A stretch of DNA of 64,000 bases from Bacteroidales bacterium (GTDB lineage: Bacteria > Bacteroidota > Bacteroidia > Bacteroidales > F082): contig JAEEON010000044.1 of assembly GCA_016284305.1 (NCBI GenBank), positions 1 through 64,000 on the forward strand. Reading direction: 5' to 3'. Under the pieces are notes generated by a model. The model did not search any database, was not told where the DNA came from, and saw only the letters and a list, made by a program, of their open reading frames with translations. Made by a program: the position numbers and the translations under genes. Of this stretch, positions 26,766 through 46,315 are shown one piece after another (within the stretch, counting starts at the first letter, position 1; every line of letters begins with the position of its first letter).

Positions 26766-27080
26766 TTAGCCGGCGACGGGGTCAGGGACGACATCGAGGA
26801 TGTCTCCGTTTTGGATAGCATAGTCTGACATCCTCATGTGGGTCTTGCCAACACGGGGATGAAGGATAATACATTGTCCGGTGGTTTCGTCCATTTTTCC
26901 AAAGTAATATTCGGTGGGCGTGAAATCAATCATCTCAGGTAGGTTGAAGAAACGTTTTCCGGTTTTGTCAACAGCATTCTTCAAATTGTTCATGAGTTGC
27001 TCCATTTCATAGTTTGGGTCGGAGATCTTGAACTTGATGGTCTTATTGCGGTATCGGATATGAACGTAGAAGTCTTCCAT
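26766..27080 (-). CDS. Ubiquitin-like protein with C-terminal Gly (module A)
   Basis: 104 residues from ATG 27080, the same length as the module-B copy; an upstream GTG/ATG would add 13 unrelated residues. Beta-grasp signature: an N-terminal hairpin (FYVHIRYRNKTIKFKISDP), a helix (MEQLMNNLKNAV), and a C-terminal half that reads like ubiquitin (MSDYAIQNGDILDVV beside ubiquitin LSDYNIQKESTLHLV). The chain ends exactly at PDPVAG, so the terminal Gly104 needs no processing before activation by an E1. Classical ubiquitin ends GG; here it is AG. It is followed after 20 nt by the coiled-coil/TM and RING genes. Inferred to be a conjugated modifier, though a purely structural role such as that of YukD in type VII secretion is possible. 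Confidence 0.75.
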   Translation of the reverse strand: MEDFYVHIRYRNKTIKFKISDPNYEMEQLMNNLKNAVDKTGKRFFNLPEMIDFTPTEYYFGKMDETTGQCIILHPRVGKTHMRMSDYAIQNGDILDVVPDPVAG

Positions 27081-27116
27081 GATGGTAAGGTGTTGATGGT
27101 GAGAAGGTGTGATTGG

Positions 27117-27149
27117 CAAAGATAAAAAAACTTTTCATACAAACTCAAA
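27117..27149 (-). promoter_or_regulatory. Candidate internal promoter before the module-A Ubl gene
   Basis: On the minus strand TTTG (27149-27146), a 21-bp spacer and TATCTTTG (27124-27117) match the Bacteroides consensus, 36 nt before ATG 27080. It could drive Ubl through tssF separately from the tube and spike genes. Confidence 0.55.
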
Positions 27150-27525
27150 CATGACCCGAATTTGTGAGGTCGATGACACCGCCCCACATACACATCAGTT
27201 TGCTTGTCGTGGTGAGTGTTGGGGCTCCTTGGGTGAGCACTTGGGGGTTGCCTGGAGCCCATGGAGCCACTGTGTTGGGGATGCATGGCATAGGAGTGAG
27301 TACGCCACAGGCAGCAGAGGTGGCGGAAGCCACCGTTGGGTTGGCTAATGAGCGGCACATCCCAAAGGTTGGGATGTTGACCATTGGTTTATTGTCCAAT
27401 ATGTTGGCCACAGGCATTCCGTTGATTGTTTTGGTTCTCGGGGTAACCACAAGGGGCGCGGGGGTCATGCCCATGCTGCATTTCATCATGGCTCCCATAC
27501 ATACTGTTTTTGAGTCTCCAGCCAT
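27145..27525 (-). CDS. PAAR-like DUF4280 spike-tip protein (module A)
   Basis: 126 residues, a single DUF4280 domain: CMGAMMKCSMG, PMVNIPTFGMCRSLANP, CGVLTPMPCIPNTVAPW and the C-terminal MCMWGGVIDL block. DUF4280 proteins are PAAR-like tips placed on VgrG. The next upstream gene is vgrG, as expected. Unlike the module-B version it has no N-terminal extension and no adjacent effector candidate. Confidence 0.85.
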   Translation of the reverse strand: MAGDSKTVCMGAMMKCSMGMTPAPLVVTPRTKTINGMPVANILDNKPMVNIPTFGMCRSLANPTVASATSAACGVLTPMPCIPNTVAPWAPGNPQVLTQGAPTLTTTSKLMCMWGGVIDLTNSGHV

Positions 27526-27560
27526 ATTGAGGTGAGGTGTTTAAGGTTAAGGCTTAAAGA

Positions 27561-29870
27561 TTACACATCCATCCAGGTGCCTTTCCGGGTACCCATGGAG
27601 GTATCGATAACCATGTTGGTTCCTTTGAGGGTGGTTGATTTACCATCAAGGGTAACGATTTGGCCCTTAATTGTGGTCATGTCCGCTTCCTCTTGGATTT
27701 CTTCTGCTTTGACTTTGGCGGTTATTTTGGCTCCCAGTTCCAAGTTGGATTTGGCCTCGAACTTCATTTCATTGGCCTGCATCGTCGTTCCTTGTGTTGA
27801 TTCGGCAGTGATGGTATTGGCATTGATTTCCAGGGTGTCTTTGGTTTCGAGTTGGACGGCTTTCTTCACTTTCATCGTCATGGATTCTTCGGCATCGAGT
27901 TTGACATTGGCGGCCAACAACGAGGTGTCACTGGTTTGGATGTGTTGTTCGCCTCCCACTTTAACGATGCGCTTTCCCTGAATGAGGGAAGTGCTATTGC
28001 CACGGGCGTTGATATGGATGTTGTTTGCGTTGAGAAAGATGTCGCCATCGCCAGCGTCGAGCATGATATCTCCTCCATTGCTTCGTACCAGGATGCGGAG
28101 TTTTTCGGCCTTGTATTTTTTCTCCTTAATGTTTTCGGAAGCCTTAGCCTCGTCATCGGCACTGTCCAATTGGAGGTCATTCTTTTGGTCGCCTTCTTTT
28201 TGCTGGATTTTATCGGTGGAGAGGATAATGTCGTAGTTGGGTTGGTCGGACTTCTCGTTGCCATAAATACGGATAAAGCCATCCCCCTCTTTGGTGTCGT
28301 GGAATTCGATGGTATGGCCTTTCTTGGAACGGAAGGACTTTACCTCGTTTTCTTTGTTGTTGTCATTGTCTTCCACCCACGCTGCATCAGGCATTTGTTT
28401 CTCTGCAGCAGTGTTGGAGTCGTGGAATAAGGTTCCAATCACGAAAGGCTTCTCCAAGTTCTCATGTTCGAATCCAACCATGACTTCTTCCCCGATTTCA
28501 GGTAGGATGTAAAAGCCTTTATTGTTGCCTCCATAGGGTTGGGAGATACGGATCCACGGCAAAGTAGCAGCTTGATTTTGGTCGGCGGGAGGCTGCTGCC
28601 ATGAGAACAACACCTGTACCCTGCCCATTTTCTTTGGATCCTTGTTATTAAGCACCACGGCGCGTTGTGCGTTCGACCTTGGATAGACATTGATGTCGGT
28701 GTAAGGTGGATAGATATTGTCTGTGTTGTTCTGTTGTTCGGATTTTGGAAGAACGATGGCGTTGACTTCACTTTGCGGCGATCCCTCACAATCCCAAGTG
28801 AAACAGATAGAGGTCACCAGAAGTACTTTGTCCAAGTTTGGGGCCTCGGCTATGGTAATCAAGGAACCTATGTCTAAATCGAATTGGTAACACGTGAATT
28901 TACAGGTGACAAAGTCATCAACGGTTGTTGCCAACAATGCCTTGCTATGAGCATCCGCTGCCTGATCCACGTACAAGCTTTGGGGATTATCCACAAAGAA
29001 TTTGTAATCCGCAACCGTTGCTTCGGAATGATCGACGGCCATCTTAACCAGATTAACAGCTCCAAGTGCACTATAATTGTCTGGTGTCGAAGTCAATGTG
29101 AGGTTTTTTTCGTACTGATAAGCTGAGAGCCTAAGATTGGGGTCACCTGTCTGGAGTTCATAGCTGAATGATGTCGCTTTCTTTGGCAAGACATTGATCA
29201 CCCCGCCATTGGGTAGTTTTCCAAAGACGAGATGGGAGGTTTTGTCGAAATAAAAGAACGCGCCAAAGCGTTTGGCTAAACGAACGAGGAAGTCGTAGTC
29301 GCTCTCGTTGTATTGGACAATAAGAGGGAATGGTTTGCTTTGGAAAACCGAATGAAGCGCAATGGTCTTTTGAATATCATCTTGACTCGGAGGGTTGGAG
29401 ACGGGAATCACTGCATCGACGATTTGGTCGATCGACATGCCTGTGAAGCATCGGCTTTTAGGGGGTCCTTGAAGCTTGGAGTCTTTGCTGTAGGCAATGC
29501 AGACCAGGCTAATGCCTTTCATTGACACTTTTGCGACAGTCCCTTTGAATTCGAGAGAGCTGAGGTTGACGATGTTGCTGGCGTTGGGACCATCGGTTTT
29601 GAATGAGCAGCTTATGCTGGTAGTTACTTTGCAATCCACTTCTTGACCGATGATGTCCTTGACAATGTCAAAACTGCTGGTTTTCGCTGTTTTATCGACA
29701 GAATGGCGTCGTAAGGTGAAGGTCAACTCGTTGGGTTGAAGCATTTTCTTCACAAGCATGACTTCTGTCACTGCATAGCAATCCAAAGTATCCTCATCAA
29801 TGTTTCGTGCTGATCGGGTACCTACTGCCTTTCCACCGATGGTGAATCGCTCCATTAAACACATCGTCAT
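27561..29870 (-). CDS. tssI: T6SS spike protein VgrG/TssI (module A)
   Basis: 769 residues. The gp27-like base (1 to about 370) includes the ESDYDFLVRLAKRFGAFFYF block; the OB-fold needle (MGRVQVLFSWQQ, PWIRISQPYGG, LPEIGEEVMVGFE) and GHTIEFHD follow; from about 600 a beta-prism of short repeats (LDAGDGDIFLNANNIHIN and similar) forms the spike shaft. ATGs at 29864 and 29855 are alternative starts. No enzymatic C-terminal extension is visible, so it is a structural spike probably capped by the following DUF4280 protein. Confidence 0.9.
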   Translation of the reverse strand: MTMCLMERFTIGGKAVGTRSARNIDEDTLDCYAVTEVMLVKKMLQPNELTFTLRRHSVDKTAKTSSFDIVKDIIGQEVDCKVTTSISCSFKTDGPNASNIVNLSSLEFKGTVAKVSMKGISLVCIAYSKDSKLQGPPKSRCFTGMSIDQIVDAVIPVSNPPSQDDIQKTIALHSVFQSKPFPLIVQYNESDYDFLVRLAKRFGAFFYFDKTSHLVFGKLPNGGVINVLPKKATSFSYELQTGDPNLRLSAYQYEKNLTLTSTPDNYSALGAVNLVKMAVDHSEATVADYKFFVDNPQSLYVDQAADAHSKALLATTVDDFVTCKFTCYQFDLDIGSLITIAEAPNLDKVLLVTSICFTWDCEGSPQSEVNAIVLPKSEQQNNTDNIYPPYTDINVYPRSNAQRAVVLNNKDPKKMGRVQVLFSWQQPPADQNQAATLPWIRISQPYGGNNKGFYILPEIGEEVMVGFEHENLEKPFVIGTLFHDSNTAAEKQMPDAAWVEDNDNNKENEVKSFRSKKGHTIEFHDTKEGDGFIRIYGNEKSDQPNYDIILSTDKIQQKEGDQKNDLQLDSADDEAKASENIKEKKYKAEKLRILVRSNGGDIMLDAGDGDIFLNANNIHINARGNSTSLIQGKRIVKVGGEQHIQTSDTSLLAANVKLDAEESMTMKVKKAVQLETKDTLEINANTITAESTQGTTMQANEMKFEAKSNLELGAKITAKVKAEEIQEEADMTTIKGQIVTLDGKSTTLKGTNMVIDTSMGTRKGTWMDV

Positions 29871-29890
29871 AGTTGTATCCTCCCTTTCAT

Positions 29891-30871
29891 TTAAAAGAAC
29901 TGAAATGTTTCTACTGCTTTTGATGCTGCTTGTCCAGCCACGTTAGCACCGGTAACCTCAAGAATACCGGGTTTGATGCCAATCTCAATCAACCAGGGAT
30001 AGGATGCATCCAAGGAGCCTTGGTTGTTGGGGTCACCTTTGAAATGTTCACGGAGGCTGATGCAATAAGCGTTTTTGAACGTGATGGAACGTGCCGACTC
30101 CAACACTCCTTTGACGATCGTGTTAGCTGCACTTGAAACGTTTTTCGTAGTGGACTTCTTTAAGGTCTCCACCCTTTTTTTGGCGACATTATCTTCCAAT
30201 TTGGCTTTGGTGCTGTTGTTGTATTTTTCCAATGCTGCCAAACACTCTTCTTTGGTTGCTGTGTCCTTGATGTTCGAATCTCTGCTTTTGGCCTCCTCGA
30301 GCAGTTCATCTTTAGTCATGTTATGAATCTTCTTGTAATAGCGGATTTTCCCCTTGATCGTTTCAACGGAATCATTGTCATCGACCTCAATGTTGAGTTG
30401 TTTGGTTTCGATGTAACTCATTAATTCCGAACGGTCCATCTCCTCGAAGATATCGTCAGCAGCAGGAGTGTAATGCGATTCCTCATCCATTTTGTTGTTC
30501 AGGTTTTCCTCGATTTCATCTCTGAGCAGGTCACTGCCTATTTCTAAATATTCCGTGGTCTCTCCTCCTGTCAGGTCCTGGGTCAATGCAGTGGCATAGC
30601 CTGTGGAATCGAAGATTTTGATGACACCGTCCATCAGTTTATCATCCGTTTTAATCCACTCGTGGAATTTGGCGGTCATCTCTTTAGTCCCTCGGATGGT
30701 GACTTTAATAAAGTCCAGACTGGCTTTGGACGAAGGTCGCCCAGTTTTGTCAATAGACCTTTTCAGCGTGTAGTCCAAATCGACTACGGTATAGGATTTA
30801 AATAGGAATCCATAAACGGCGGAAGCAGCGCTCCCCGACTCCCTGAGTTCAAATGTTGCAGATATAGCCAT
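29891..30871 (-). CDS. Hcp/TssD-like tube protein with internal insertion of helix-extension-helix modules
   Basis: 326 residues from ATG 30871 (MAISATFELRESG). The first 95 or so residues match Bacteroidetes Hcp (SYTVVDLDYTLKRSIDKTGRPSSKAS). The last 70 resume the Hcp fold (ITFKNAYCISLREHF, WLIEIGIKPGILEVTGANV). The roughly 160 residues between them replace a surface loop and include two helix-extended-loop-helix (HeH/SAP/LEM-like) segments: DRSELMSYIETKQLNIEV and MTKDELLEEAKSRD with ATKEECLAALEKY. Hcp rings stack into the T6SS tube, so an insertion this large would project into the lumen or outwards. It is the only Hcp-like gene of module A. Confidence 0.7.
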   Translation of the reverse strand: MAISATFELRESGSAASAVYGFLFKSYTVVDLDYTLKRSIDKTGRPSSKASLDFIKVTIRGTKEMTAKFHEWIKTDDKLMDGVIKIFDSTGYATALTQDLTGGETTEYLEIGSDLLRDEIEENLNNKMDEESHYTPAADDIFEEMDRSELMSYIETKQLNIEVDDNDSVETIKGKIRYYKKIHNMTKDELLEEAKSRDSNIKDTATKEECLAALEKYNNSTKAKLEDNVAKKRVETLKKSTTKNVSSAANTIVKGVLESARSITFKNAYCISLREHFKGDPNNQGSLDASYPWLIEIGIKPGILEVTGANVAGQAASKAVETFQFF

Positions 30872-30897
30872 ATTGTTCAAATTTCAATTTTCATAAT

Positions 30898-32037
30898 TCA
30901 ATTCTTCACCAACTTTTTAGCCATCTCATAGTTTTTGAGAGCGGTGGCATCGACTTTCTTGAGACATGCTGGGGCGAGCGCGTTGATTTTGGCATCGGTC
31001 TCCTTCACCAGGCTGTCAAACGCAAGCTTTTTGGCTTGTTTAATGGCAGCATCAGAGGCTGACATCCAGTCATTGGCATAGGTGTTCATCTTGACCACGG
31101 CTGCTTTCAAGTCCTCGTTGGTCTTTTTGATGTTACAGTCTTCTGCAATCGGGCTGCTTGCCTGTCCAGCACCCCCGCTCCCACTCCCGCTCCCACTCTT
31201 GGGCGTGGTATCAAACTTTTTGATTCTGGCAATCAAGTCCTTCAATGAAACCAAGGCTTCATCAATGTCTTTGCATTTCGTGTTCTCGAAACGCTTCAGA
31301 TCAATATGAGTTATTTCGTTGACAAGCAGTGTTTTAACCTTATCAATGCCATTGCTTTTCGCTTCACTCATCTCTTGAAGAGTCTCCTCTCCTTCCCCGA
31401 AAATGCCCAGATACTCGTTAAGTTGTGTGAGTAGTTCAGCGTGTACGGTACAGTATTCATGGACAACATCAATATCCAACGATGTCTCATTGCCAATGAA
31501 AGACAGTTCGTAACGGTTATTTTCATAGTAGAGGAGCAGCGGGTTTTTCAGTGTCAAGGTGACGGTTTCCACGTTTGGATCCACCGCTACGTTCAAAGAC
31601 AGCGTGGATCGATTGTCAAGAGGTAGGATCTGTTTTTGCAGCTGTGTTTTGATGCCTTCCTTGGTTTGTATGGTCATCTTGCCTGAAGGTGAAGCACCTG
31701 TGAAATGGATGACGGTTTCAGCAGTTTTCTCCTTAAGGTTCATGAAGCTTATCTGTTCCTTGGCGAACGAAGAGACGGACAGTTTCCCCTCCTGTTGTTT
31801 GGCGTATTTGTCGAGAGAACTATAGCCTATATTGTCCTGAAGCAGCCATAAGGCATTGGCTTCCGCAGTGTCGTCACCGGTCATAGTAATTGTAAGGATT
31901 CCTTTGTCTTGGTCGAAATCGGTTTTCACTTGTAAAACCACGGGGGCAACCTTGTCGTTGGGGCCTTCGATGACCAAGGTCTTTTGGGCCCATACCAAAG
32001 CTGGAGACAACAGCAGGAAAAGGAGCAGTCTTTTCAT
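30898..32037 (-). CDS. Exported T6SS-associated protein, paralogue of 44219-45367 (module A)
   Basis: 379 residues with a signal peptide ending near VWAQ (about 18) and no TM or lipobox, so periplasmic. The first half is beta-rich; residues 200-290 are helical; a Gly/Ser/Pro linker lies near 285-300; the end is helical with Cys in EDCNIKK and PACLKKV. These Cys and the ENTKCKDID segment recur in the module-B paralogue, suggesting conserved disulfides. No known domain. First gene of module A; its presence in both modules suggests an envelope component rather than an effector. Confidence 0.55.
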   Translation of the reverse strand: MKRLLLFLLLSPALVWAQKTLVIEGPNDKVAPVVLQVKTDFDQDKGILTITMTGDDTAEANALWLLQDNIGYSSLDKYAKQQEGKLSVSSFAKEQISFMNLKEKTAETVIHFTGASPSGKMTIQTKEGIKTQLQKQILPLDNRSTLSLNVAVDPNVETVTLTLKNPLLLYYENNRYELSFIGNETSLDIDVVHEYCTVHAELLTQLNEYLGIFGEGEETLQEMSEAKSNGIDKVKTLLVNEITHIDLKRFENTKCKDIDEALVSLKDLIARIKKFDTTPKSGSGSGSGGAGQASSPIAEDCNIKKTNEDLKAAVVKMNTYANDWMSASDAAIKQAKKLAFDSLVKETDAKINALAPACLKKVDATALKNYEMAKKLVKN

Positions 32038-32079
32038 CGTACAAAGATTAAAAGATTAAGAGAAAATACATTAACTCAG

Positions 32080-32115
32080 CAAATTTACAAACTATCTTGA
32101 AGTTATCCAAGATAG
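32080..32115 (-). promoter_or_regulatory. Candidate module-A promoter with overlapping palindrome
   Basis: Minus strand: CTTG (32111-32108), 20-bp spacer, TAAATTTG (32087-32080), 42 nt before the ATG at 32037. A perfect 8-bp inverted repeat (CTATCTTG 32092-32099, CAAGATAG 32108-32115, loop 8) overlaps the -33 site. On the plus strand this hairpin precedes nine T residues, so it could alternatively be a terminator facing the other way. Confidence 0.45.
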
Positions 32116-32157
32116 ATCGTTTTTTTTTGCTTTTTTTTAGAAGCTTCAGAGAAAGGA

Positions 32158-32997: not shown

Positions 32998-33019
32998 CTC
33001 TCAACTCTCAACTCAACTC
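32991..33019. repeat. Heptanucleotide repeat CTCTCAA x3 plus partial copies
   Basis: Three perfect CTCTCAA units (32991-33011) then CTCAA units, spanning the start of the kinase gene and the TGA of module-B tssF. A third sequence variety of the window's 7-bp intergenic repeats. Confidence 0.75.
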
Positions 33020-34764
33020 ACTATCGCCAAAAAGTCCACCACCAAGGGCAGCACATTGATGCTACGAGCTTCAATCAGTTTCTTGAGGCGGTCAATCAGC
33101 ATTGGTACATCTTCCCGGTCACGGACGAAGTCGTTTTTCAGATGAATTGTGACATGTTGTATGGCACCTGATTCTTTGCGTTCGACGTTGCTGACGACAT
33201 CAAGCATGGCTTCTTTAAGGCCTATTTGATGGAAATAGCGCAGGCAGAAGGCCTTCAGGTCGGCTCGAGTGACGATGCGGTCGTGTGTCTGGACATAGTA
33301 TTTCGACAACATGATCCTTTCTTCTTTGTCGATGATCTCTTCTTTACCACCGAACGTCTTCATCAGCAATCGGGTCTCCTTCTTATCAAAGGTTTTAGGG
33401 GCAGATACATCGCTGAACAAGTCGATGTCGTTTGCGTAGGCACCATCAGTAAACAAGGCTGTAAGGTGGATGGCAGGCATCTCGCCCTGGAGTTTTCCCC
33501 GTTTCAGCACCGCATAGACTCCTGATCTGGGCACTCTGTTGTTGGTGATGATGTCAATCACGTCTTTGAGTACGATATCCAGTCGGCGGATCTTGTCGGT
33601 ATTCTGCATCTTATGCAGCTTCTGGAAGGCATAGAAATCCGATTCATAGCGTTTGCAGAGTTGGTCGGCAAGACGCACCAAGGCATTGATATTGAATCGT
33701 TCGCTGCCGAATCGACGGATGGTGAAACGGTCAAAGTCGTCAAGGTTATTGTCGGAATTCAGCACCATGCCCATGAAATAGTCATCGTGGTTGTTGTCGG
33801 CATGCACCGAACTGATATTGCGGACCACTCCCCCGTCTTCATCAGTGAACTCTGATTCCGTAGTGAGTTTGATGATGGGCTCTGCAGAAGAAAGGTTGAA
33901 GTCTTTCTTGACCACATTGACCGCAGGGAAACAGTTGAGCATCAGGTTATCTTGTTCGAAATTAAAGGGTTTCGACATTCCAGAGAACTCAAACACGAAG
34001 TTGATCATATCTGAATCCATGGGACGCTTGAAGGTCGGTGCCACCATATAGAAATTGGTGTTCAGTTCCGACCACAGATCATACCAGTTGTTATCGCCAT
34101 TGTAGAGGACGTTTTTATTCAGGACGAAATTGGATTCGTTGAACCAAGGTATCCTCGGGTAACGGTCAAACTCCCATGGCTTGATCAAAGGCAGCTTCTC
34201 GTTGTTCCAATACACATTCAAATCAGTGTATCTCAGTCCAGTCACGACAAATCCGAGGCTTGAGAGATCGGCTGACTGGTCGCTAACATCGATATTGACA
34301 TTCCATTTGTCGGATGCGATCTTGGTCACGCCGTTCACATTCATGCCAATGATCTTGGTTTTGAACAGAGGCTGGAAAGGAAACAATTCCTTGACGCGAA
34401 GCGACTCTTTCTTGACCAAGAAGGTAGTGCTCTCATCGCAGAACACGTCATCTTTCTCTTCGGCATTCTTAGAGGTTTTGATCAAGGTCATTGCTGGAAC
34501 AGCTTGGGTCAACCGATACGGCAATATGGTCCGTTGAAATTCGTCAACCACGTCGCTCTCAAGGTTTTGGATCTCCACACGCAATCCATTGTTCTGATAT
34601 ACGAATGCTGTCACCAGCACACGCAGCAAGGGATCCTTCTCGAAGCCATAGAAAGGAGAGTTCGGGTTATTGCCATCCCATTTTCCTTCGCGTCTCCAGG
34701 TCTCGAGGACCTTTTGCATCAGATTGTCAACCTGTATCTGAATATCATATTCTTCTTGTGTCAT
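33013..34764 (-). CDS. tssF: T6SS baseplate protein TssF (module B)
   Basis: 583 residues from ATG 34764 (MTQEEYDIQIQVDNLM); a TTG at 34785 would overlap tssE. Collinear with module-A TssF: EGKWDGNNPNSPFYGFEKDPLL, FQRTILPYRL, PWEFDRYP, AVNVVKKDF and RRFGSERFN. It has about 35 extra residues near 330-350, rich in Asp and Asn. The gene ends module B; a repeat and the GlcNAc-kinase-like gene follow. Confidence 0.9.
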   Translation of the reverse strand: MTQEEYDIQIQVDNLMQKVLETWRREGKWDGNNPNSPFYGFEKDPLLRVLVTAFVYQNNGLRVEIQNLESDVVDEFQRTILPYRLTQAVPAMTLIKTSKNAEEKDDVFCDESTTFLVKKESLRVKELFPFQPLFKTKIIGMNVNGVTKIASDKWNVNIDVSDQSADLSSLGFVVTGLRYTDLNVYWNNEKLPLIKPWEFDRYPRIPWFNESNFVLNKNVLYNGDNNWYDLWSELNTNFYMVAPTFKRPMDSDMINFVFEFSGMSKPFNFEQDNLMLNCFPAVNVVKKDFNLSSAEPIIKLTTESEFTDEDGGVVRNISSVHADNNHDDYFMGMVLNSDNNLDDFDRFTIRRFGSERFNINALVRLADQLCKRYESDFYAFQKLHKMQNTDKIRRLDIVLKDVIDIITNNRVPRSGVYAVLKRGKLQGEMPAIHLTALFTDGAYANDIDLFSDVSAPKTFDKKETRLLMKTFGGKEEIIDKEERIMLSKYYVQTHDRIVTRADLKAFCLRYFHQIGLKEAMLDVVSNVERKESGAIQHVTIHLKNDFVRDREDVPMLIDRLKKLIEARSINVLPLVVDFLAIVS

Positions 34765-34778
34765 AATTACTTCAGTTT

Positions 34779-35255
34779 TTACCAAACATCAACATTAAAC
34801 TCATTATAATAGATTGCATTGGATGGATTGTTGATCTTCCCAGTGACGATGATATGAATCACTCGTCCATATTTTTGGAAGTCCATGCTGACGACAACAT
34901 CTTTCAGTCTTCGTTCATAGCGTTCGATGCTGTTTTTCAACTCACGGGCAAAGGTGTCGGCACTCTTGCTGGATCCTACAAGTCGTTTCGCGTAAAGCGA
35001 ATCATGGATGTCACGGAGTTCCGTGTTCTCTGTCTTATCCTTGATGGGGAAATTTCCATGGAACTTCGCCTTATCGATATTGAACGACTCAAAGCGGAAG
35101 TCTTCGAGGCAGAAGCCAAATTCCTCATCAGCGATGCTGTCGTACTTGTTCGACGAGATCAGCAGTTGGATGAAGGCGTCGATGGAAGCCTTGAGGTTAT
35201 GCTCGTCGAGATCGACAATCGGGTAACGGAGTTGTAATGGATTACGGATAAACAT
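34779..35255 (-). CDS. tssE: T6SS baseplate protein TssE (gp25-like, module B)
   Basis: 158 residues. LRYPIVDLDEHNLKASIDAF, ADEEFGFCLEDFRFESFN and the helix IERYERRLKDVVVSM align with module-A TssE. gp25-like proteins join baseplate to the first sheath ring. Located 14 nt upstream of tssF. Confidence 0.85.
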   Translation of the reverse strand: MFIRNPLQLRYPIVDLDEHNLKASIDAFIQLLISSNKYDSIADEEFGFCLEDFRFESFNIDKAKFHGNFPIKDKTENTELRDIHDSLYAKRLVGSSKSADTFARELKNSIERYERRLKDVVVSMDFQKYGRVIHIIVTGKINNPSNAIYYNEFNVDVW

Positions 35256-35274
35256 AACTACACCGGTTAAAAAG

Positions 35275-36957: not shown

Positions 36958-36966
36958 GTTTATTCG

Positions 36967-38175: not shown

Positions 38176-38184
38176 GATTAGCGT

Positions 38185-39465
38185 TTATTTTAAGTTGTAA
38201 ACCACGCCGACTTCCACACTCGGAATCACGGCCTTGCCTCCATTGCTGAGCACTGCGGCATGGCTTCCAGGAAGGAAATGCTCCGTTTCAGCAGCAGTTC
38301 CAAAGGTCCCCAAAGGGAAGTCCAACTTCAATCCGGCATTCAAAGCCACTGGCGATCCTTTGAAAGGAACATAGGCTCCTAAGGCCAAGTTGCCCCAAAG
38401 GACAAACGACTTCAGCTCGGGCTCGAACTCGGCATCATAACAATCCAAATTTTCGCCATAGCCTAACTCGGTGATATTCTCAAGGGTGACATCCCATTGG
38501 GAATAATAGCCTTTCAGATCATATTTTCCAGCACCTTCAAACGAAGAAGATACTTTGATGGAGGGAGTCAATCCCAACTTTGCATATACCGTCACACGGT
38601 CCTTGATGGGCAAACCGATGCTCAAACGCACGGGAATGTCGAGATAGGTCAAGGAAAGTTCTTCATTGAGATCCCTGAACGCATAGATGGCGTTAGCATC
38701 GTCGTTGTCATTGTCCTTGCCGGTGATGGTAGTGGAATACTCTGCCAAGTTCGCCGACATCTTGAATGAACGAATGCCCAATCCTGCTTCAACCGAGATC
38801 GGGAATGAAGGCGAAAATGAAGCGGTTCCAAAATAGACAGCCAACTGTTTTGCCCAATTGACATCGTTGGCCCACTCCTCGGGAGTACTCTTGCCCATGA
38901 GAACGGGACCTAAGCCAATCTCCAAACCAATCACGGGACTCGTAGGTGGAAGAGCCGCGCCTTTCAAGATTTTGACCTCTTGATCTAAGTCTTTGATTTT
39001 CTGATTACAAGCGTCAATCACTTTATTCATCTCTTCAATAGACTTCTCTTGATTTATAATGGTCTCTCTATAATGGGCCATGGTTTCTTCGCTGGCCAAG
39101 CCATCATGGCTTGTTGCCTCACGCAATTCATCCAATGTCTTGTTCAGGGTCTCAATCTCAGTTTCGTAGTCTTTGACTTTCTTGCGAAGCCTCTTCACTT
39201 CAGAATCCCCTCCACCAGGCTTAATGCCTTTGAGCTCCTTGTTGGCTTTGTCAAGGTCTTCTTGAAGCGTCTTGACCTTGGCACGAAGCTCATCAACGAC
39301 CTCATAGTTGACCGACTGGATCACGTCTTCAACGTTTCCCTTGTAATACTCCACCTTGATTCGTTTGCCGTCCTTGGTCTTGCCTCGAACGGTTGAAAGT
39401 TGTGATTGGGAATAGGCTGTTGCAGTGACAGCGGAGACCACAAGAAATAAAAACAACTTTTTCAT
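38185..39465 (-). CDS. Outer-membrane beta-barrel protein with N-terminal coiled coil
   Basis: 426 residues: signal peptide (ATAYSQSQ, about 19), a charged heptad-rich segment at about 55-170 predicted as coiled coil, then about 250 residues of alternating amphipathic strands typical of small OMPs (GLEIGLGPVLMGKS, SVEAGLGIRSFKMS, LGAYVPFKGSPVALNAGLKL) ending in VVYNLK. Located between E1 and the RING gene. Inference: the coiled coil crosses the periplasm and the barrel anchors the apparatus in the outer membrane, the task TssJ has elsewhere. It has no module-A paralogue, so both modules would have to share it. Confidence 0.65.
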   Translation of the reverse strand: MKKLFLFLVVSAVTATAYSQSQLSTVRGKTKDGKRIKVEYYKGNVEDVIQSVNYEVVDELRAKVKTLQEDLDKANKELKGIKPGGGDSEVKRLRKKVKDYETEIETLNKTLDELREATSHDGLASEETMAHYRETIINQEKSIEEMNKVIDACNQKIKDLDQEVKILKGAALPPTSPVIGLEIGLGPVLMGKSTPEEWANDVNWAKQLAVYFGTASFSPSFPISVEAGLGIRSFKMSANLAEYSTTITGKDNDNDDANAIYAFRDLNEELSLTYLDIPVRLSIGLPIKDRVTVYAKLGLTPSIKVSSSFEGAGKYDLKGYYSQWDVTLENITELGYGENLDCYDAEFEPELKSFVLWGNLALGAYVPFKGSPVALNAGLKLDFPLGTFGTAAETEHFLPGSHAAVLSNGGKAVIPSVEVGVVYNLK

Positions 39466-39482
39466 ATGATACTATTTTTAAA

Positions 39483-41828
39483 TCATTTGTCTTTTTCGAT
39501 GTAAGTGAACTTGGTGTTGCCAATGAAGAAACAGCTACCATGGCTCAGAAGGATGGAGTCGCCCTCCTTAAGCGCACGCTGGTCTTCTCCATAGGTCGTA
39601 CCGTCAGTGAGCGCATGGCAATACGGATGGTCGTTGTCGATGTACAACTCCACCTGTTTATCCATGATTTGGTCACTCGGATCCCAGTTCATTTGGATGA
39701 CGCAGTTGGGTGAGCTGCCGATGGTGACGTGGTTGGAACCTCCAGCAACGTTCATCCATTTGTAGATGGCGATGTCGCGCTCCTTGGTAGGACCTTCAAT
39801 ATGGAGATAGTAGTTTTCCGAAGTGTAGTGAACCACAGCTATGGAAGCGCCCAGACCTGCGGCATAGACCATGAAGCCAAACATGCCGATGACCTCCATG
39901 TTAATCATATATACGGCGACAAAACTCAGTGCCACCGAAACCAGACCGCCAATGAAGGCTTCCTTGAACTGGATATCGGTTTTCTTCGACAAGAGATAGG
40001 TGATGCTGATACCGAAGAACAGCCACGGCACCCAGTCAATCCACCAACAGTTGCTCGACTTGCCCAAGGCGATGATGATCACAGCGCCCAGCAAGAAGGC
40101 CAAGCAACCGATAATGGCATTGCCCAGGGAGCGGGCAAGGATGAGCAAGATGGTTTTGAAGGTCTTCTTTCTGAACTCGATCAAATAGCTGAACAAGAAA
40201 GTAATGACGAAGCCTAAGATGAGGCCGCACATCAACAAGGGTTGGATCTTTTGCACAAACTCATTGGCAAACAGCTCAGCATTCTCTCCATGGAACAGGC
40301 CGACGATCCAGCGAATCAAAGTCTCAAAGACAGGGATGCTGGGGATCACCTTGAACAGGAGCCATGAAATCAGACCGCCTGCCAAACCATAGAGGAGCCA
40401 GGAGGTGAAATAGGGTGAGTTGCGTTCGTCCGTCAGGCGTTTCTTATTATAGAAATAGATGCCTTCCTTGCAGCTGTTAAGTCCGTACTCAGGGCAACGG
40501 TCGTGATTTTCTTCCCAACACTCCCAGTGTACGGTATGTTGGCATTTGGTGACGATGAGATCGCCCTCCTCGAAGTTGTCCTTGCAGTAGTAGCACTGTT
40601 GAAGCACCACATTCTTGCCATCGTCTCTTACATCGGATGGTTTGAACTTCTTCACGTATTTCTTGCGGAAGATCTTATATTGAACCCAAGGCACCAGGAA
40701 TTGCATGACGAGATAGGTCAGGACGATGAATCCCAAGCCTAGCAGAAGTCCATAAAGCAGGATGGAGAGTTTACCACGGTTGGTTGCCACCTCAGCGGGA
40801 GCCAAGGTAATGGGCGACAGTGCAGAACCGAAGGAATACTTTTTCTCGCCGTGTGCCTTGGCCTTGTCGATATCCAAGAAGAGGTTCAGCGGCTGTCCGT
40901 TATAGGTCACCTTCTCTCCTACCGTATAATACATACGATAGTCCATGGCGATGGAGTCGATGGCACCAAGCAGCATGGATTTCAAGGAATCGATGGAATA
41001 CTGTGGATAGAAACGTCCTTCGGGCGTGCGGTGGCACATGAACTTAAACTCGTTCTCCATCTCAGGCTCGAGTTCCTCGCCGAAATAGATGCAATAGATG
41101 GCTTTAAGTTGATCTGGAATGGTCAGGTAATCGGGATTGTTGAAAAGCAACTTGTCGCGGAAGAAGGTTTCGTCCTCGTCTTGCTCCACCTTACCGGACA
41201 GGATGAACAGCATCTTGTCGGAAAGCGTATCGGCACTCAGCTCTTGGTTGTGAGGGATGTCGGGATAGAAACATTCGTCCTCATCCAAGTTGGCGATTTC
41301 CTGGATTTTGGAGATGACTGAAGCATAAATCGACTTTTCTTCCTCTGCCTGCGACACCATGTTGTCGCGACGCACAAAGGAGCGGATGCTCTCGCCAGCA
41401 TAGACCCTCTCGGTCTCGGTGACGTCAGAGCCCATCATGGTGATATAAACCTTAACATACTCGGGCAGAGCATCAACGAAGGTGACGATGGCCTCTTTCA
41501 CTTTCAGGTAGTCCTCTTCACTGAGCATGGAACCTTGGTCAGCCAGGATCACGATGGTCAGGTTGTTGGAAACCAATTTCCGACTCGAGATATCGACCAA
41601 GCTATCGATAGTCAGCTCGATGGTATCGCCATTGACGATTTCAAAACACCGACAGTCATTAGCATTCAAACCGAAATAAGGGACTTTGACACCGTCACGC
41701 ATCAGTTTGAAGTCAACGAAACGGGTGACATCTGTCGATTCCACCGATCCAAACTCCATCTCAACCTGAGCAAAAGCAGGTCGGAGAAACAATGTGATAA
41801 ATAACAGTAATATTGATAAACGTTTCAT
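39483..41828 (-). CDS. Seven-TM protein with vWA-like, RING-H2-like and FHA-like domains (candidate E3, module B)
   Basis: 781 residues, collinear with the module-A protein. Signal peptide; periplasmic vWA-like domain (ILADQGSMLSEEDY, a near-canonical DxGS metal-site loop); TM1 near 355-375 with a basic cytoplasmic flank; RING-H2-like finger C412, C415, C429, H431, H434, C437, C445, C453, with seven residues between the last pair; six more TM helices; cytoplasmic FHA-like domain (HVTIGSSPNC and LSHGSCFFIGNTKFTYIE). Only the last knuckle departs from classical RING spacing. It is flanked by JAMM and OMP genes. The candidate role is to bring the charged E2 to substrates at the inner membrane; a purely zinc-binding structural finger is the alternative. 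Confidence 0.68.
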   Translation of the reverse strand: MKRLSILLLFITLFLRPAFAQVEMEFGSVESTDVTRFVDFKLMRDGVKVPYFGLNANDCRCFEIVNGDTIELTIDSLVDISSRKLVSNNLTIVILADQGSMLSEEDYLKVKEAIVTFVDALPEYVKVYITMMGSDVTETERVYAGESIRSFVRRDNMVSQAEEEKSIYASVISKIQEIANLDEDECFYPDIPHNQELSADTLSDKMLFILSGKVEQDEDETFFRDKLLFNNPDYLTIPDQLKAIYCIYFGEELEPEMENEFKFMCHRTPEGRFYPQYSIDSLKSMLLGAIDSIAMDYRMYYTVGEKVTYNGQPLNLFLDIDKAKAHGEKKYSFGSALSPITLAPAEVATNRGKLSILLYGLLLGLGFIVLTYLVMQFLVPWVQYKIFRKKYVKKFKPSDVRDDGKNVVLQQCYYCKDNFEEGDLIVTKCQHTVHWECWEENHDRCPEYGLNSCKEGIYFYNKKRLTDERNSPYFTSWLLYGLAGGLISWLLFKVIPSIPVFETLIRWIVGLFHGENAELFANEFVQKIQPLLMCGLILGFVITFLFSYLIEFRKKTFKTILLILARSLGNAIIGCLAFLLGAVIIIALGKSSNCWWIDWVPWLFFGISITYLLSKKTDIQFKEAFIGGLVSVALSFVAVYMINMEVIGMFGFMVYAAGLGASIAVVHYTSENYYLHIEGPTKERDIAIYKWMNVAGGSNHVTIGSSPNCVIQMNWDPSDQIMDKQVELYIDNDHPYCHALTDGTTYGEDQRALKEGDSILLSHGSCFFIGNTKFTYIEKDK

Positions 41829-41838
41829 AATGTGACAA

Positions 41839-43437
41839 TTAAACTCTCTTTCTTCTAATCCATTCTTTCATTTGGGTCATCGTTGTAGAACCCGTCTTGG
41901 CAAAGCTGCCTGATGAGTTGCGCGTCCAGACATCCAATTCATTATCCGTCTTACAGCTGACCAGGAACTGGCATCCGTTAAGTTCGGAGGCATATTTTTG
42001 AAGTGAAGCTTCCGTCAGGTCATCGTCATTGATCAGGCAACCGCGTTTTTCATCATTCTCATAGGGCAAGCAGCAACCTACTTGGATATAGCCATTTTCT
42101 TCTTCACCAAACAAGTAGCCGATAACACCTTTAACATTGGAGAACAAGGCGTTATCCACTTGGTTGATGGCATGGCCTGCGAAGCCGATGTGGTGTAGTC
42201 CTTCCCCATTCAATGCAAGGTTGAAATAGTCGGGGTTGGCTTTGAATTCCTCAAGCAGGTCGTTAGCCTGATAACCGTTACGGTTCATCTCACGGCTTTG
42301 GCGATAGATCTCTTCAAAGGAGAACCAACGTTTCACCTCCTCTTGGTTGTTCATCTTGCCATCGGCCTTTGCGGTGAAGAATCCCACCTTGAAATCTGGT
42401 GTATTGGTGTCGATGACAATGGCTATCAGACGTTTAGGATGGTCAGGATAGGTCAGCTGACGTTGCACGATCAAGTCTTGGTTCGACAGGAAGAGTCCCA
42501 ATCCAGGGTGCGAGTGCATCCAGCAGGTGAGCACATAGTCGCGTTTCGACTTGGTAGCCAGAGTGTTGATGACCGATGCGGTGTTGATTCCAATCTTCTT
42601 GCCAAAGTTCAGGCTATACTCACCAAAGTCGGCGTCATCGCCAGGTTCAACCATGTACTCCAAGCTGATGTTGTAGCGATTCGGTTTTCCTTGTTCGTGA
42701 TCCCAGCAACCGAGGATGAAGCACCCCGTCTCGTTGGTCCTGCCACCATCTTCGAGGGAATTGTTGAAGAAGTCGTACAGTTTTTTGATGAGTGCGGCAC
42801 TGAAATACACCTTGTTGATGGCCGTATCGGTGAACACCATGTCCATGTCGAAAGCGAGGTATTCGTTGAGATGGTCGTAAACATGTTGCAGTCCCTTTTC
42901 ATAAACGATCGACTCGTCATTGATCATGTTGAGCACATTAGGATCGTTGGTCTCAGGTTTCACGGCTGGTCTTTTTCTCTTTCGTTGGACAACGAAGATA
43001 AAGATACCGATAAGCAGGAGCAGTGCGGCAGAGCCAATGATATAGATAATATTGCGTTTCGACGCGGATCCTTTGAATTGGTTGCCGGGTTTCAGTCGCT
43101 CCATCTGCGGCATCATATCCACGTTGATGGTGATTTGTTCACCATTAAAGAGCCCTGGCACACTCACTTTGTCATTGGTTGAAAGTCCAATAGGATGAAG
43201 GATGTAAGGCTCTGAATTTGACATGAAGAGGCAAGTATCGCGTCCTCCCCATTCGAAGCAGTTGCGGATGGGATCGTTGGTGATGGCTTTCTTCACGAAC
43301 TCAAGGTGCCCGGAAGGCACGTTGACGCTGAGTTTTCTGCCATCGAAGCTCATCGTTGGGTTTTGTCCCATCAACGCTGAAGCTGACAACAGGATGACAC
43401 TGATAAACAAGCCAATATAATACTTTGTCTTAATCAT
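41839..43437 (-). CDS. Membrane-anchored JAMM/MPN metalloprotease (candidate Ubl deconjugase)
   Basis: 532 residues. Signal peptide (ASALMGQ); a periplasmic domain of about 100 residues; a TM helix at 129-150 followed by QRKRKR, placing the rest in the cytoplasm. The JAB1/MPN core carries the full JAMM set: Glu236 in NETGCFILG, His308 and His310 in HSHPG, Ser318 and Asp321 in SNQD. JAMM enzymes with these residues cleave isopeptide bonds after ubiquitin-like C-termini. The two Ubl genes already end at Gly, so maturation is unnecessary and deconjugation is the likelier task. About 130 C-terminal residues of unknown fold follow. There is a 4-nt overlap with the coiled-coil/TM gene. Module A has no counterpart. 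Confidence 0.82.
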   Translation of the reverse strand: MIKTKYYIGLFISVILLSASALMGQNPTMSFDGRKLSVNVPSGHLEFVKKAITNDPIRNCFEWGGRDTCLFMSNSEPYILHPIGLSTNDKVSVPGLFNGEQITINVDMMPQMERLKPGNQFKGSASKRNIIYIIGSAALLLLIGIFIFVVQRKRKRPAVKPETNDPNVLNMINDESIVYEKGLQHVYDHLNEYLAFDMDMVFTDTAINKVYFSAALIKKLYDFFNNSLEDGGRTNETGCFILGCWDHEQGKPNRYNISLEYMVEPGDDADFGEYSLNFGKKIGINTASVINTLATKSKRDYVLTCWMHSHPGLGLFLSNQDLIVQRQLTYPDHPKRLIAIVIDTNTPDFKVGFFTAKADGKMNNQEEVKRWFSFEEIYRQSREMNRNGYQANDLLEEFKANPDYFNLALNGEGLHHIGFAGHAINQVDNALFSNVKGVIGYLFGEEENGYIQVGCCLPYENDEKRGCLINDDDLTEASLQKYASELNGCQFLVSCKTDNELDVWTRNSSGSFAKTGSTTMTQMKEWIRRKRV

Positions 43438-44207
43438 ATTGATGGGATGTTTTCTTCTTCTTTCTTCGGTTTCTTCTCCTTTTTGGGCTTTAACGCTTTG
43501 GCAGCCTTGACCTTAGTGCTGATCAGTGTGATGATCATGGTGATGGCTGCGACGATGCCCACAATCTCAAGGATGAGCGTCATGTTGATGGGGCTCTTGA
43601 TCACTTCCATGGCTTGGATCCGGGTATAGGTGTCCTTGATGTTTCTCCAGAGTGAGGTGAGTTCCTCATCTTCATCGACAAAATCGCGGTTAGCGCCATA
43701 TTCCACGGTGGCTTCCTCAACATAGCATTCTTGGGCCAGTTGTTTGACAATGCCGAGCGAGTCGATACGTTTGTTTTCGACGCAACGGCTCCCAGCCTCT
43801 TCCAGTTCAGCGAGATGTTCCAGATAGCGGTTCATCTTGATGTTGAGCTTTTCGAGCTTGTCTTGTTTTATCTTTTCCGCCTTCAACTCTTCGATACGCT
43901 TGCCGATTTGCTGGTGCAAGACGGTGTAGTTGTCGTAAATCGTGTAGAGTTTTTTGTCGTAACGGAAGAGCTCGCTATAGTCGTTGTAGCACGACTCCAC
44001 CAACTTGATATGGTTTTTGTAGCGAGGTTCCAAGTTTTCGGCATCTTCGGCGGTCACAATCTGGCTGTCGAGTTTGACCAGTTCCTTGTAATAGCCATTG
44101 AGTTCTTCCTTGACCATATCGACAAGGTCGTCTTGGGCCATGGTTCTCATGGGCGACAGCAGTGCCATCATGGCAAGGAGAAGAAAACAACAACGATGGT
44201 TTTTCAT
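43434..44207 (-). CDS. Periplasmic coiled-coil protein with C-terminal TM anchor (module B)
   Basis: 257 residues: signal peptide (PMRTMAQ), a Lys/Glu-rich helical periplasmic part with heptad-like segments (RIEELKAEKIKQDKLEKLN), one TM at about 207-229 and a very basic cytoplasmic tail (about 28 residues). Same plan and position as 25990-26745 in module A. The ATG side is preceded by the periplasmic protein and the stop overlaps the JAMM start. A likely link between periplasm and the cytoplasmic baseplate. Domain not recognised. Confidence 0.6.
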   Translation of the reverse strand: MKNHRCCFLLLAMMALLSPMRTMAQDDLVDMVKEELNGYYKELVKLDSQIVTAEDAENLEPRYKNHIKLVESCYNDYSELFRYDKKLYTIYDNYTVLHQQIGKRIEELKAEKIKQDKLEKLNIKMNRYLEHLAELEEAGSRCVENKRIDSLGIVKQLAQECYVEEATVEYGANRDFVDEDEELTSLWRNIKDTYTRIQAMEVIKSPINMTLILEIVGIVAAITMIITLISTKVKAAKALKPKKEKKPKKEEENIPSI

Positions 44208-44218
44208 GATTCAGGGGT

Positions 44219-45367
44219 TTACTTGATAAGTTTCTTGACGAACTCGTAGTTCTTCAACAGTTTCTTGTCGAGCTTGTCTTTGCATCCGGAAGGCAGTTCG
44301 TTGAGTTTGGCGTCGAACTTCTTGACTTCCGATTCAAAGGCAGCTTTCTTTTCTGCTTTGGCGGCAGCGTCGCTAGCCAGTGACCAGTCGTTGACCAAGT
44401 TGTTGAGCTTGTTGGTCACGGTCTTGACTTCGGCATCCAATTTCTTGGTATCGCAGGAAGGTTGTGTGTTGTTGTTGTTATTATTGTAAGTCTCTTTCTT
44501 GCCCATATCCTCGATACGTCCGATGCAATCCATCAAGCTTTGGTAACTTCTTTGGATATCTTCGCAGTCAGCGTTTTTGAAACGGTTGAGGTCAATCACG
44601 TTGAACTCATTCATGACGAAGTCCTTGAAGCTCTTTTGCGTGCTGGGGCTTTTCTTGAGTTCGTTGAGTTTGTCTTCGGCAACTTGGAACAGAGCCTCAT
44701 ACTCTTGGATGGTTTGGATCATCTGCTCGGCATCCTTGCAGCGTTCCAACTTGATGGTGATGGTGATGTCGTCTGCCACGAATCCCAAGGTGCCTTTACG
44801 ACCGCTACGATCCATCGGGATGGGGTTGCGGAACTTCAAGGTAACGTTGCTGTTACCGGGATTCACCTTGAAACTCAGATCGAGTTCCATTTTGCCATCG
44901 AGGGGAACCATTTGGTGATCCAGTTCCTTTTTGACTCTTCTGGATGACTTCAGATCATATACGCCGCTGAAGGTCATGCCAGTAGCTTGGATTGAAGCAT
45001 TAAGGGTCTTGTTGGAGAAGTCGATGAAGCTTTCTTGGTCGGAATAGTTGAATGATTTGATCATCTTGACGCCATGGTTGCTCATATAGCTTCCAAGTTC
45101 GGCGAAGGCAACATCATGTTGGGGCAGCCACACCTTGTCGTAGTTTGAATTGATATTGGCGGCACCGCAGCGCACGAGCAGGGTCTCCGAAGCCTGGTCG
45201 AATTCGAACCTAAGGTTCATGCTTGCCTTAGGTACACGTTCGTTATAGCCAGGGATATCCACAGTCAGGTCAGTGGACTCTTCGGTGGAGACAGACACTT
45301 TATATTGGGCGAAAAGCATCGCCGGTACAAAAAGGATGGTTAGTAAGAATAATGCGATCTTTTTCAT
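44219..45367 (-). CDS. Exported T6SS-associated protein, paralogue of 30898-32037 (module B)
   Basis: 382 residues, signal peptide ending near AMLFAQ. Beta-rich first half; helical second half with conserved Cys in NADCEDIQ, PSCDTKK and SGCKDK at the positions seen in the module-A copy; Asn run in the linker near 300. No catalytic motif. Two copies, one per module, suggest a structural or regulatory periplasmic part. Confidence 0.55.
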   Translation of the reverse strand: MKKIALFLLTILFVPAMLFAQYKVSVSTEESTDLTVDIPGYNERVPKASMNLRFEFDQASETLLVRCGAANINSNYDKVWLPQHDVAFAELGSYMSNHGVKMIKSFNYSDQESFIDFSNKTLNASIQATGMTFSGVYDLKSSRRVKKELDHQMVPLDGKMELDLSFKVNPGNSNVTLKFRNPIPMDRSGRKGTLGFVADDITITIKLERCKDAEQMIQTIQEYEALFQVAEDKLNELKKSPSTQKSFKDFVMNEFNVIDLNRFKNADCEDIQRSYQSLMDCIGRIEDMGKKETYNNNNNNTQPSCDTKKLDAEVKTVTNKLNNLVNDWSLASDAAAKAEKKAAFESEVKKFDAKLNELPSGCKDKLDKKLLKNYEFVKKLIK

Positions 45368-45373
45368 GGCTTT

Positions 45374-45967
45374 TTAATTTTCGTTTCTGAGTTGTTCTAT
45401 CCAGCCGTTAGGTTCAGCTTGTTCAAGAACCCATTCGGCCACTTTGTTATCCTCCGGGTAAGGAGGTGTATTCAATGCATGGTATTTCTCATATTTCAAA
45501 TACAACATCACACGGTCAACATACCAAGCCAAGTCGGTAAAGGTGCCACAGGCCGGGGTGTTGAGGCAAACGCGACCGGCGAAGTCGCCGAAGAAGCGGA
45601 TGTTGGGATGCCAGGGGTGCGGTATCTCGTTGCCTTGGTCGTCCTTGGTGATGAACTTGAACTCGAGCTTGCTGTCCACTGCAGGATAGTTGTTCGGGAT
45701 GGTGATGTGCATCCTGAATTCATCGGCGCATATCGGCTTGCAGAGACCGTTCTCATCCGGTTCCTCCACATTGCAGAACGACTTCACCTTGAAGATGATC
45801 TCGTATTGAATTGGCAAGTTCTCGGGATTGCGCTTTCTGATGACATAGGTGATGTCGGGATCATCCTTGAAACGTTGGTCGATGGCCGACCATTCGTGCA
45901 TCAGACGGCGATTCCGTCCAACAAAACGGATTTGCTTGTACTGATCTATTTCTCTGGGCTGCTCCAT
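45374..45967 (-). CDS. E2-like ubiquitin-conjugating enzyme (UBC fold)
   Basis: 197 residues from ATG 45967; a GTG at 45991 would add eight. The UBC fold is recognisable: EFRMHITIPNNYPAVDSKLEF corresponds to the E2 strand-turn before the active site, His120-Pro121-Asn122 is the HPN motif, and Cys134 in GRVCLNT sits twelve residues after HPN (eight in UbcH5-type enzymes). A helix follows (FTDLAWYVDRVMLYL), then NTPPYPEDNKVAEW, which matches the DPLVPE-to-helix region of E2s. Extra cysteines lie upstream. It is directly downstream of a Ubl gene (33-nt gap) and upstream of the membrane genes. Expected to take Ubl from the E1 and deliver it alone or with the RING proteins. A catalytically dead UEV is unlikely because the Cys is present. 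Confidence 0.8.
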   Translation of the reverse strand: MEQPREIDQYKQIRFVGRNRRLMHEWSAIDQRFKDDPDITYVIRKRNPENLPIQYEIIFKVKSFCNVEEPDENGLCKPICADEFRMHITIPNNYPAVDSKLEFKFITKDDQGNEIPHPWHPNIRFFGDFAGRVCLNTPACGTFTDLAWYVDRVMLYLKYEKYHALNTPPYPEDNKVAEWVLEQAEPNGWIEQLRNEN

Positions 45968-46000
45968 ATCAAAAAGGGTTTGGCAAATCACTCCATCAAT

Positions 46001-46315
46001 TTAACCGGCAATAGGATCGGAGATCACTTCCAGAGTGTCGCCGGCCTTCACGTTATAGTCAAGCAGCGTCTTCTTGGTCTTGCCCACCTTGGGTTGCAAG
46101 ATGATGTCGCGTCCTGTCACCTCGTCCTTCTTGCCGAAGAAATACTCGGTGGGGACATAGTCAATCATCTCCGGCAAGTCGAAGATGCGTGTACCCGTGT
46201 TGTCCACTGCCTTACGCAAGTTGTTCATCAGAACTTCAAGATCTGTAGTGGGATCGGTAACTCTGAACTTGATCGTCTTGTTCTTGTACCTTAAGAATAA
46301 AAAGAAGTCTTCCAT
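46001..46315 (-). CDS. Ubiquitin-like protein with C-terminal Gly (module B)
   Basis: 104 residues, collinear with the module-A copy: hairpin FLFLRYKNKTIKFRVTDP, helix LEVLMNNLRKAVDNT, insert with EMIDYVPTEYFFGKKDE, then LLDYNVKAGDTLEVI like ubiquitin's LSDYNIQKESTLHLV, and end SDPIAG with Gly104 last. No internal Cys. It lies immediately upstream of the E2 gene. Internal Lys residues (several in 1-50) could allow chain formation. Inferred substrate of the E1/E2/JAMM set. Confidence 0.78.
   Translation of the reverse strand: MEDFFLFLRYKNKTIKFRVTDPTTDLEVLMNNLRKAVDNTGTRIFDLPEMIDYVPTEYFFGKKDEVTGRDIILQPKVGKTKKTLLDYNVKAGDTLEVISDPIAG

Follow-up and report, generated by a model that had tools for sequence, protein, structure and literature searches.

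The window analysed here is a stretch of 64,000 nucleotides, part of contig C37 of a Bacteroidales metagenome-assembled genome (MAG; 2.59 Mb, 89% complete), and it carries a ubiquitin-like conjugation cascade within the gene cluster of a type VI secretion system (T6SS). The cluster extends from 61248 down to 19840, with all genes on the minus strand. Its cascade genes encode two ubiquitin-like proteins (Ubls), Ubl1 (46001..46315) and Ubl2 (26766..27080), an E1 activating enzyme (36967..38175; 402 aa), an E2 conjugating enzyme (45374..45967; 197 aa), a membrane-anchored JAMM protease (41839..43437; 532 aa), and two membrane proteins in which a RING-H2 motif is found, RING1 (39483..41828; 781 aa) and RING2 (23629..25971; 33% identical to RING1). 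The gene order is ClpV, TssB, TssC, two Hcp, VgrG, a PAAR-like protein, five genes mostly without assignment and Ubl1, followed by E2, two envelope proteins, JAMM, RING1, an outer membrane protein-like protein, E1 and the baseplate genes TssG1-K1-E1-F1. TssF1 is separated by one apparently unrelated gene from a second set of genes, module B. The cluster brings together genes for sheath, tube, spike and baseplate and for ClpV, with TssF and TssG recognised by co-linearity, which identifies the machine as a T6SS.

The component identities had been proposed in a sequence-only reading of this DNA and were confirmed. The E2 (UBC) has the catalytic Cys134 and the HPN motif (residues 120-122) in 81/81 aligned rows. 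The E1 (ThiF/MoeB/UBA) has an adenylation domain, CxxC and CxxH zinc pairs (likely ligands C168, C171, C261 and H264) and a catalytic cysteine, assigned by position to Cys187 and kept in 74/75 rows. A candidate second Ubl-like domain at the E1 C-terminus was rejected, as profile comparison gave no match. Ubl1 and Ubl2 (each 104 aa, 60% identical) end in PIAG and PVAG, respectively, and combine a beta-grasp fold, for which talin F0 and ubiquitin score about equally, with a C-terminal glycine; Gly104 is found in 81/81 rows and the stop codon follows directly in 79 of them. The eight RING-H2 ligands occur in C-C-C-H-H-C-C-C order in 77/77 rows, with the last ligand pair spaced 6 or 7 residues rather than 2; prokaryotic RINGs with a longer last gap are reported in the available part of PMC11354881. 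The JAMM protease has the E, HxHP and SxxD elements, its metal and catalytic residues being kept in 20/20 rows. A closely related E2 homologue occurs in Candidatus Limimorpha. The dN/dS values against the relative L016 were low (0.03 for E2 and 0.02 for Ubl1), which, dS being saturated, indicates only that the genes are kept. We are close to certain that the cascade is real.

Module B (19840-32037) is ordered envelope protein, Hcp, VgrG2, PAAR2, Ubl2, envelope protein, RING2 and TssG2-K2-E2-F2, and thus forms a second baseplate-spike-Ubl-RING set without its own E1, E2, JAMM, sheath or ClpV. Identity of its copies to their partners is 23-38% (VgrG 26%, to the copy at 53422), apart from PAAR (57% over 115 aa to the copy at 52313) and Ubl (60%). 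E1, E2, JAMM, TssB, TssC and ClpV are each present in a single copy in the window. Since Ubl and RING were duplicated with the baseplate and E1, E2 and JAMM were not, the former look like per-machine parts and the latter like shared enzymes.

The same arrangement was found in relatives, where linkage was counted at the closest 80 of 131 confirmed E2 loci. Near E2 lies a T6SS gene at 78 loci, a Ubl at 80, an E1 at 74, a RING at 76 and a JAMM at 19, and Ubl, E1, E2, RING and a baseplate gene occur together at 68. Where E1 or RING is lacking, the locus ends or is cut around or before the expected place of the gene. The two loci without T6SS genes are L034, from a genome in which TssC lies on a different contig, and L090, which is a contig of 5 kb. 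The spacing is tight: E1 and TssG are at most 150 bp apart at 68 of 71 loci (median -3, with starts taken from the longest open reading frames), TssF adjoins Ubl at 57 of 60, and Ubl adjoins E2 at 76 of 80. There are two gene orders, that of the window (20 loci, 19 with JAMM; L029 without) versus the JAMM-less E1-TssGKEF-Ubl-E2-..-RING, L090 being assignable to neither. Among 34 distinct E2 genomes (35 handles including one same-genome pair), 33 have TssC. A RING match was obtained for all 46 E2 handles (43 distinct genomes, the same-genome pairs being G057/G561, G349/G562 and G084/G564) and for 0/6 TssC genomes without E2, and in G057 and G091 two RINGs lie on one contig with one E2. The carriers are some gut and rumen bacteria, including Xylanibacter ruminicola D31d, Prevotella sp. 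ne3005, Bacteroides mediterraneensis An793, Mediterranea massiliensis, Millionella massiliensis, Caecibacteroides pullorum AN421 and Parabacteroides distasonis An863.

These counts bear out the proposal of a contractile secretion system with a built-in cascade that includes RING candidates. Because the component assignments stand and 78 of 80 loci have T6SS genes in their neighbourhood, neither of the two outcomes that would have told against the sequence-only reading, failed component assignments or a lack of linkage in relatives, was seen. Its further proposal is that Ubl conjugation may regulate assembly, spike choice or recycling of the machine. We consider it very probable that the cascade is dedicated to this machine.

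The abutment of E1 with TssG and of TssF with Ubl, together with the co-duplication of Ubl and RING with the baseplate, suggests that the cascade acts at the baseplate or anchor, and adjacency favours the baseplate over spike choice. The reading that we favour is a regulated conjugation at the baseplate or anchor, at the RING protein, in which the predicted attachment of Ubl to membrane-located proteins of the baseplate or anchor would license assembly or docking of the contractile tail; we give this a probability of roughly 0.5. In such a pathway, E1 would charge the C-terminal glycine of the Ubl, E2 would take the Ubl over from E1, and the RING protein would bring E2~Ubl to the baseplate of TssK, TssG, TssE and TssF. 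Where present, the membrane-anchored JAMM may remove or trim the Ubl.

N-terminal hydrophobic and transmembrane (TM) segments are found in RING1, RING2 and JAMM and in none of E1, E2 and the Ubls. RING1 consists of an N-terminal hydrophobic segment, a VWA domain (~85-295), a TM segment, the RING-H2 motif (412-453), further TM segments and an FHA-like C-terminus. In the JAMM protein, an internal TM segment (~130-148) is followed by a basic stretch, so the JAMM, RING and FHA domains are predicted to be cytosolic and the VWA domain periplasmic. The cascade could instead be cargo, injected to act inside the target cell, as the position of Ubl2 after PAAR2 in module B might suggest. This is extremely improbable, given that RING and JAMM are predicted membrane proteins and that the key residues are near-invariant.

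JAMM was not found at 61 of 80 loci, some of them truncated, and of 29 whole genomes searched it was missing from 23, the other six having it. We therefore rejected JAMM as a universal part of the system, and JAMM-based recycling, one of the roles raised earlier, cannot be general. Extensions of the Ubl past the glycine were found in L028, L048, G188, G747 and G979, all with JAMM. They occurred in 4/22 JAMM loci versus 0/61 others (p 0.004 in a post hoc Fisher test, which ignores relatedness), G979 being a later fifth case; G218 and G556, like most JAMM loci, have JAMM without an extension. Finding extensions only alongside JAMM would be expected if JAMM trims the Ubl, and where the Ubl already ends at glycine such processing would be unnecessary. 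According to the available part of PMC10097602, single-glycine donors can conjugate, and a single terminal glycine is also that of Atg8/LC3. This likeness, with the predicted membrane location of RING and JAMM, would also be consistent with a charged Ubl being passed to a lipid or small molecule in an LC3-like manner, or acting as a sulfur carrier. Sulfur transfer, however, needs neither a dedicated HPN E2 nor a RING motif, and the sole sulfur-pathway family among the 30 Pfam-scanned window proteins is the ThiF of E1 itself, no wider sulfur-gene search having been made. We regard a non-protein target or a non-conjugating use as very unlikely.

The available part of PMC10781749 describes the T6SSiii of Bacteroidota as core Tss proteins plus TssNQOPR and names it the sole T6SS type in the phylum. 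The window system resembles T6SSiii in its TssC, Hcp, VgrG, ClpV and TssE/F/G/K relatives and in its Bacteroidota host. It differs in carrying Ubl-E1-E2-RING and in lacking the T6SSiii anchor protein TssN (PF17555), which was not matched in the window genome (MAG 89% complete); control genomes were also silent, and the same model elsewhere placed eight genomes over the cut-off. TssO, TssP, TssQ and TssR gave no Pfam match among the 30 window proteins and no phmmer match at the 80 loci, searched at low sensitivity with one query each. Across 393 Bacteroidales genomes, TssC was found in 18, E2 in 6 and TssN over the cut-off in 8, with no genome having both E2 and TssN; within the 18 TssC genomes of this even sample the zero overlap is not significant (p 0.10). 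TssN exceeded the cut-off in one of the 34 distinct E2 genomes (G574). In G574 a separate contig carries a second TssC, of the T6SSiii kind, and a third contig carries genes like TssN, O, P, Q and R. A further E2 genome (G582) gave a TssN match of 19.3 bits, below the cut-off, and was left out of the count.

A TssC tree (midpoint root, rows below 380 aa dropped, long branches flagged, L021 and L107 representing one genome) separated all eight TssN-linked rows from the cascade rows by a 100/100 branch. Because G428, which has a kinase, groups with G556, which has the cascade (99/97), two label changes are required for the 15 cascade rows; G218 falls immediately outside the group with TssN. Both E2 and over-cut-off TssN are missing from six of the 18 TssC genomes. 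In three of these (G428, G417 and G500) genes for a protein kinase and an FHA protein lie close to the T6SS, and PP2C is present in G417 (by Pfam) and G500 (by phmmer); in G409 and G440 the T6SS lies on contigs shorter than 7 kb, and the TssC of G443 is a 42-position fragment. Loci L101, L102, L127 and L128 have kinase and FHA genes close to T6SS genes, with PP2C at L127 and L128, in genomes without either TssN or the Ubl cascade. At the 80 E2 loci no kinase was detected (0/80, phmmer queries only), and G556 has the cascade plus kinases near its T6SS. T6SS threonine phosphorylation proceeds through the PpkA-PppA-Fha pathway. The Ubl cascade resembles it as a post-translational control with an envelope sensor bearing a periplasmic VWA domain and an FHA partner. 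It differs in having a RING in the place of the kinase; kinase and FHA genes occur in the E2-less G428, G417 and G500, yet kinases also lie near the G556 cascade.

The Ubl might instead be a constitutive covalent scaffold that is joined a single time to the anchor or baseplate as a structural piece for docking, replacing the in-chain ubiquitin-like cytosolic domain of T6SSiii TssN. The Ubl does share with the ubiquitin-like domains of TssN and EccD a beta-grasp fold at a secretion membrane complex, but those domains are in-chain and unconjugated, and ubiquitin folds are alike in general, as the near-equal talin F0 and ubiquitin scores illustrate. A derivation of the Ubl as a detached TssN domain was rejected on sequence, since hhalign found nothing (probability 0.1%), and the RING gave no profile match to TssN (3%) or to TssR, the TssR alignment having two rows. 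The transmembrane RING and the JAMM suggest regulation rather than a fixed scaffold, which we judge to be unlikely.

The cascade also occurs outside the T6SS. Sampling 395 genomes across the phylum yielded E2 solely in G000, G653 and G747. G653, G747 and G979 belong to one genus of another order, and in 3/3 the cascade shares a contig with an extracellular contractile injection system (eCIS; loci L132, L136, L139; L134, L135, L138, L140, L142; L143-L145). The gene set there is nSTAND1-E1-Ubl-E2-JAMM-VWA/FHA protein plus an ion channel (nSTAND1 and channel by eye in G747), divergent from a PAAR gene that adjoins it in G653 and G747 and lies 12 kb away in G979. The eCIS genes comprise sheath, tubes, gp25, spike, Pvc16 and tape measure. 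The distance between sheath and cascade is 18, 42 and 23 kb in G653, G747 and G979, respectively, and in G653 eCIS-core proteins lie between the two. The eCIS-linked Ubl matched YukD at 1.3e-5, slightly below the cut-off. In G188 (L113, L114), E1-Ubl-E2-JAMM-RING lies beside SrfB (PF07520) and SrfC-like (PF10139) genes. Other neighbours of the G188 cascade are a second JAMM, Ubl-like proteins, a subtilase-like protein and a papain-like protein.

The nSTAND1 and ion channel flanking the eCIS-linked version raise the question of whether the cascade is a defence module, a Bil-like system acting on incoming phage tails by tagging them, its place in the T6SS operon being incidental. Where such Ubl conjugation has been characterised in bacteria it serves defence, as far as the available part of PMC10097602 shows, and generic PADLOC E1-E2 models match the window E1 (1e-15). 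PADLOC gave nothing for the other six proteins (E2, Ubls, JAMM and RINGs; presence of Bil models in the library was not checked). The tight E1-TssG and TssF-Ubl spacing at most loci and the duplication of cascade parts with the baseplate also argue against such a module, as does the absence of an E2 match from the phage and plasmid records searched, which likewise led us to reject a mobile plasmid or phage origin of E2. We consider the defence explanation quite unlikely.

Several observations weigh against regulated conjugation at the baseplate or anchor. The structure search gave no match of its own for the RING fold; in G747 the RING ligands are in part lost and U-box-like, and G653 fails the ligand pattern. 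The T6SS of G428 has a kinase and FHA protein instead of E2 and RING and its TssC groups with that of G556, so a T6SS of this type can do without the cascade. Conversely, TssC was not found in the G188 genome, other sheaths not having been searched for, and the cascade is therefore not strictly tied to the T6SS. These two genomes, one with a T6SS and no RING and one with a RING and no TssC, also weaken the idea of the RING as a general membrane complex. The lineages without JAMM have no known deconjugase, E2 is rare (6 of the 393 sampled genomes), and the linkage figures leave 51 of the 131 E2 loci outside the count.

The remaining genes of the cluster are assigned as follows. At the high-coordinate end lie the AAA+ protein ClpV/TssH (58744..61248), TssB (58213..58674, by position and family co-linearity), TssC (56812..58188; PF17541 4e-104), the two Hcp-like proteins (55771..56769), and VgrG1 with the PAAR-like protein (52313..55752; DUF4280 2e-30). 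The gene adjoining PAAR encodes a cysteine-rich protein (51150-52349) for which Pfam gave no convincing family. Next to it is a large protein (48738-51146), an effector candidate whose GFDWFR-like start resembles by eye a protein of a T6SSiii locus (L119:3181-4569) and which has an HE..GH-like stretch at its end. The two envelope proteins after E2 are a 382 aa protein with an N-terminal hydrophobic segment (44219..45367; 31% identical to its module B counterpart, 30898..32037) and a 257 aa protein with hydrophobic segments at both termini (43434..44207; paralogous to 25990..26745 in module B). The protein between RING1 and E1 (38185..39465) combines a coiled coil with an outer membrane beta-barrel-like part on weak Pfam matches. 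The first baseplate set comprises TssG1 (36184..36957, by co-linearity, without a Pfam match), TssK1 (35275..36162; VasE 0.043), TssE1 (34779..35255; gp25 1.2e-5, slightly below the cut-off) and TssF1 (33013..34785; TssF 0.15). The gene between the modules (32158-32997) encodes by eye a BadF/N-acetylglucosamine-kinase-type protein. Module B contains an Hcp with two TssD stretches and a long extra stretch (29891..30880; TssD 4.5e-16), VgrG2 (27561..29870), PAAR-like 2 (27145..27525), TssG2 (22859..23632; 35% identical to TssG1), TssK2 (21967..22884) and TssE2 (21489..21956), copies of TssK1 and TssE1, and TssF2 (19840..21489; 34% identical to TssF1).

Prokaryotic RING-E1-E2-JAB-Ubl operons were reportedly predicted by Burroughs, Iyer and Aravind in 2011. 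The window cascade is likely of the same broad kind, which reportedly includes YukD-like Ubls; no T6SS or eCIS link is known to have been made for those operons. With Bil and with Cap2-Cap3 of the CBASS anti-phage defence systems it shares E1, E2, JAMM and a donor with a C-terminal glycine (available parts of PMC11354881 and PMC10097602). Unlike in those systems, the window E1 and E2 are separate genes (Cap2 is a fusion), the E2 has HPN, a RING candidate is present, and the context is a T6SS or eCIS. In the available part of PMC10097602, Cap2 conjugates cGAS itself and no E3 is known there. We found no description of an E1-E2-RING pathway serving a secretion machine in the open literature, of which our coverage was partial. 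More broadly, a TssN-less T6SS type and an eCIS of Bacteroidota may depend on their own ubiquitin-like pathway, in which an envelope-spanning RING E3 would sense the outside through its VWA domain and Ubl covalently set on the baseplate would dock and arm the tail, a ubiquitin-style equivalent both of TssN and of the kinase/FHA switch; we hold this wider proposal at somewhat less than even odds. A TssN-less T6SS with a cascade stands against the view that T6SSiii is the sole type in the phylum, a statement found in the available part of PMC10781749. Since cultured carriers exist, direct tests are possible. If our reading is true, this would be, as far as the partly covered open literature shows, the first bacterial E1-E2-RING pathway whose role lies in a secretion machine, and not in defence or in making cofactors.

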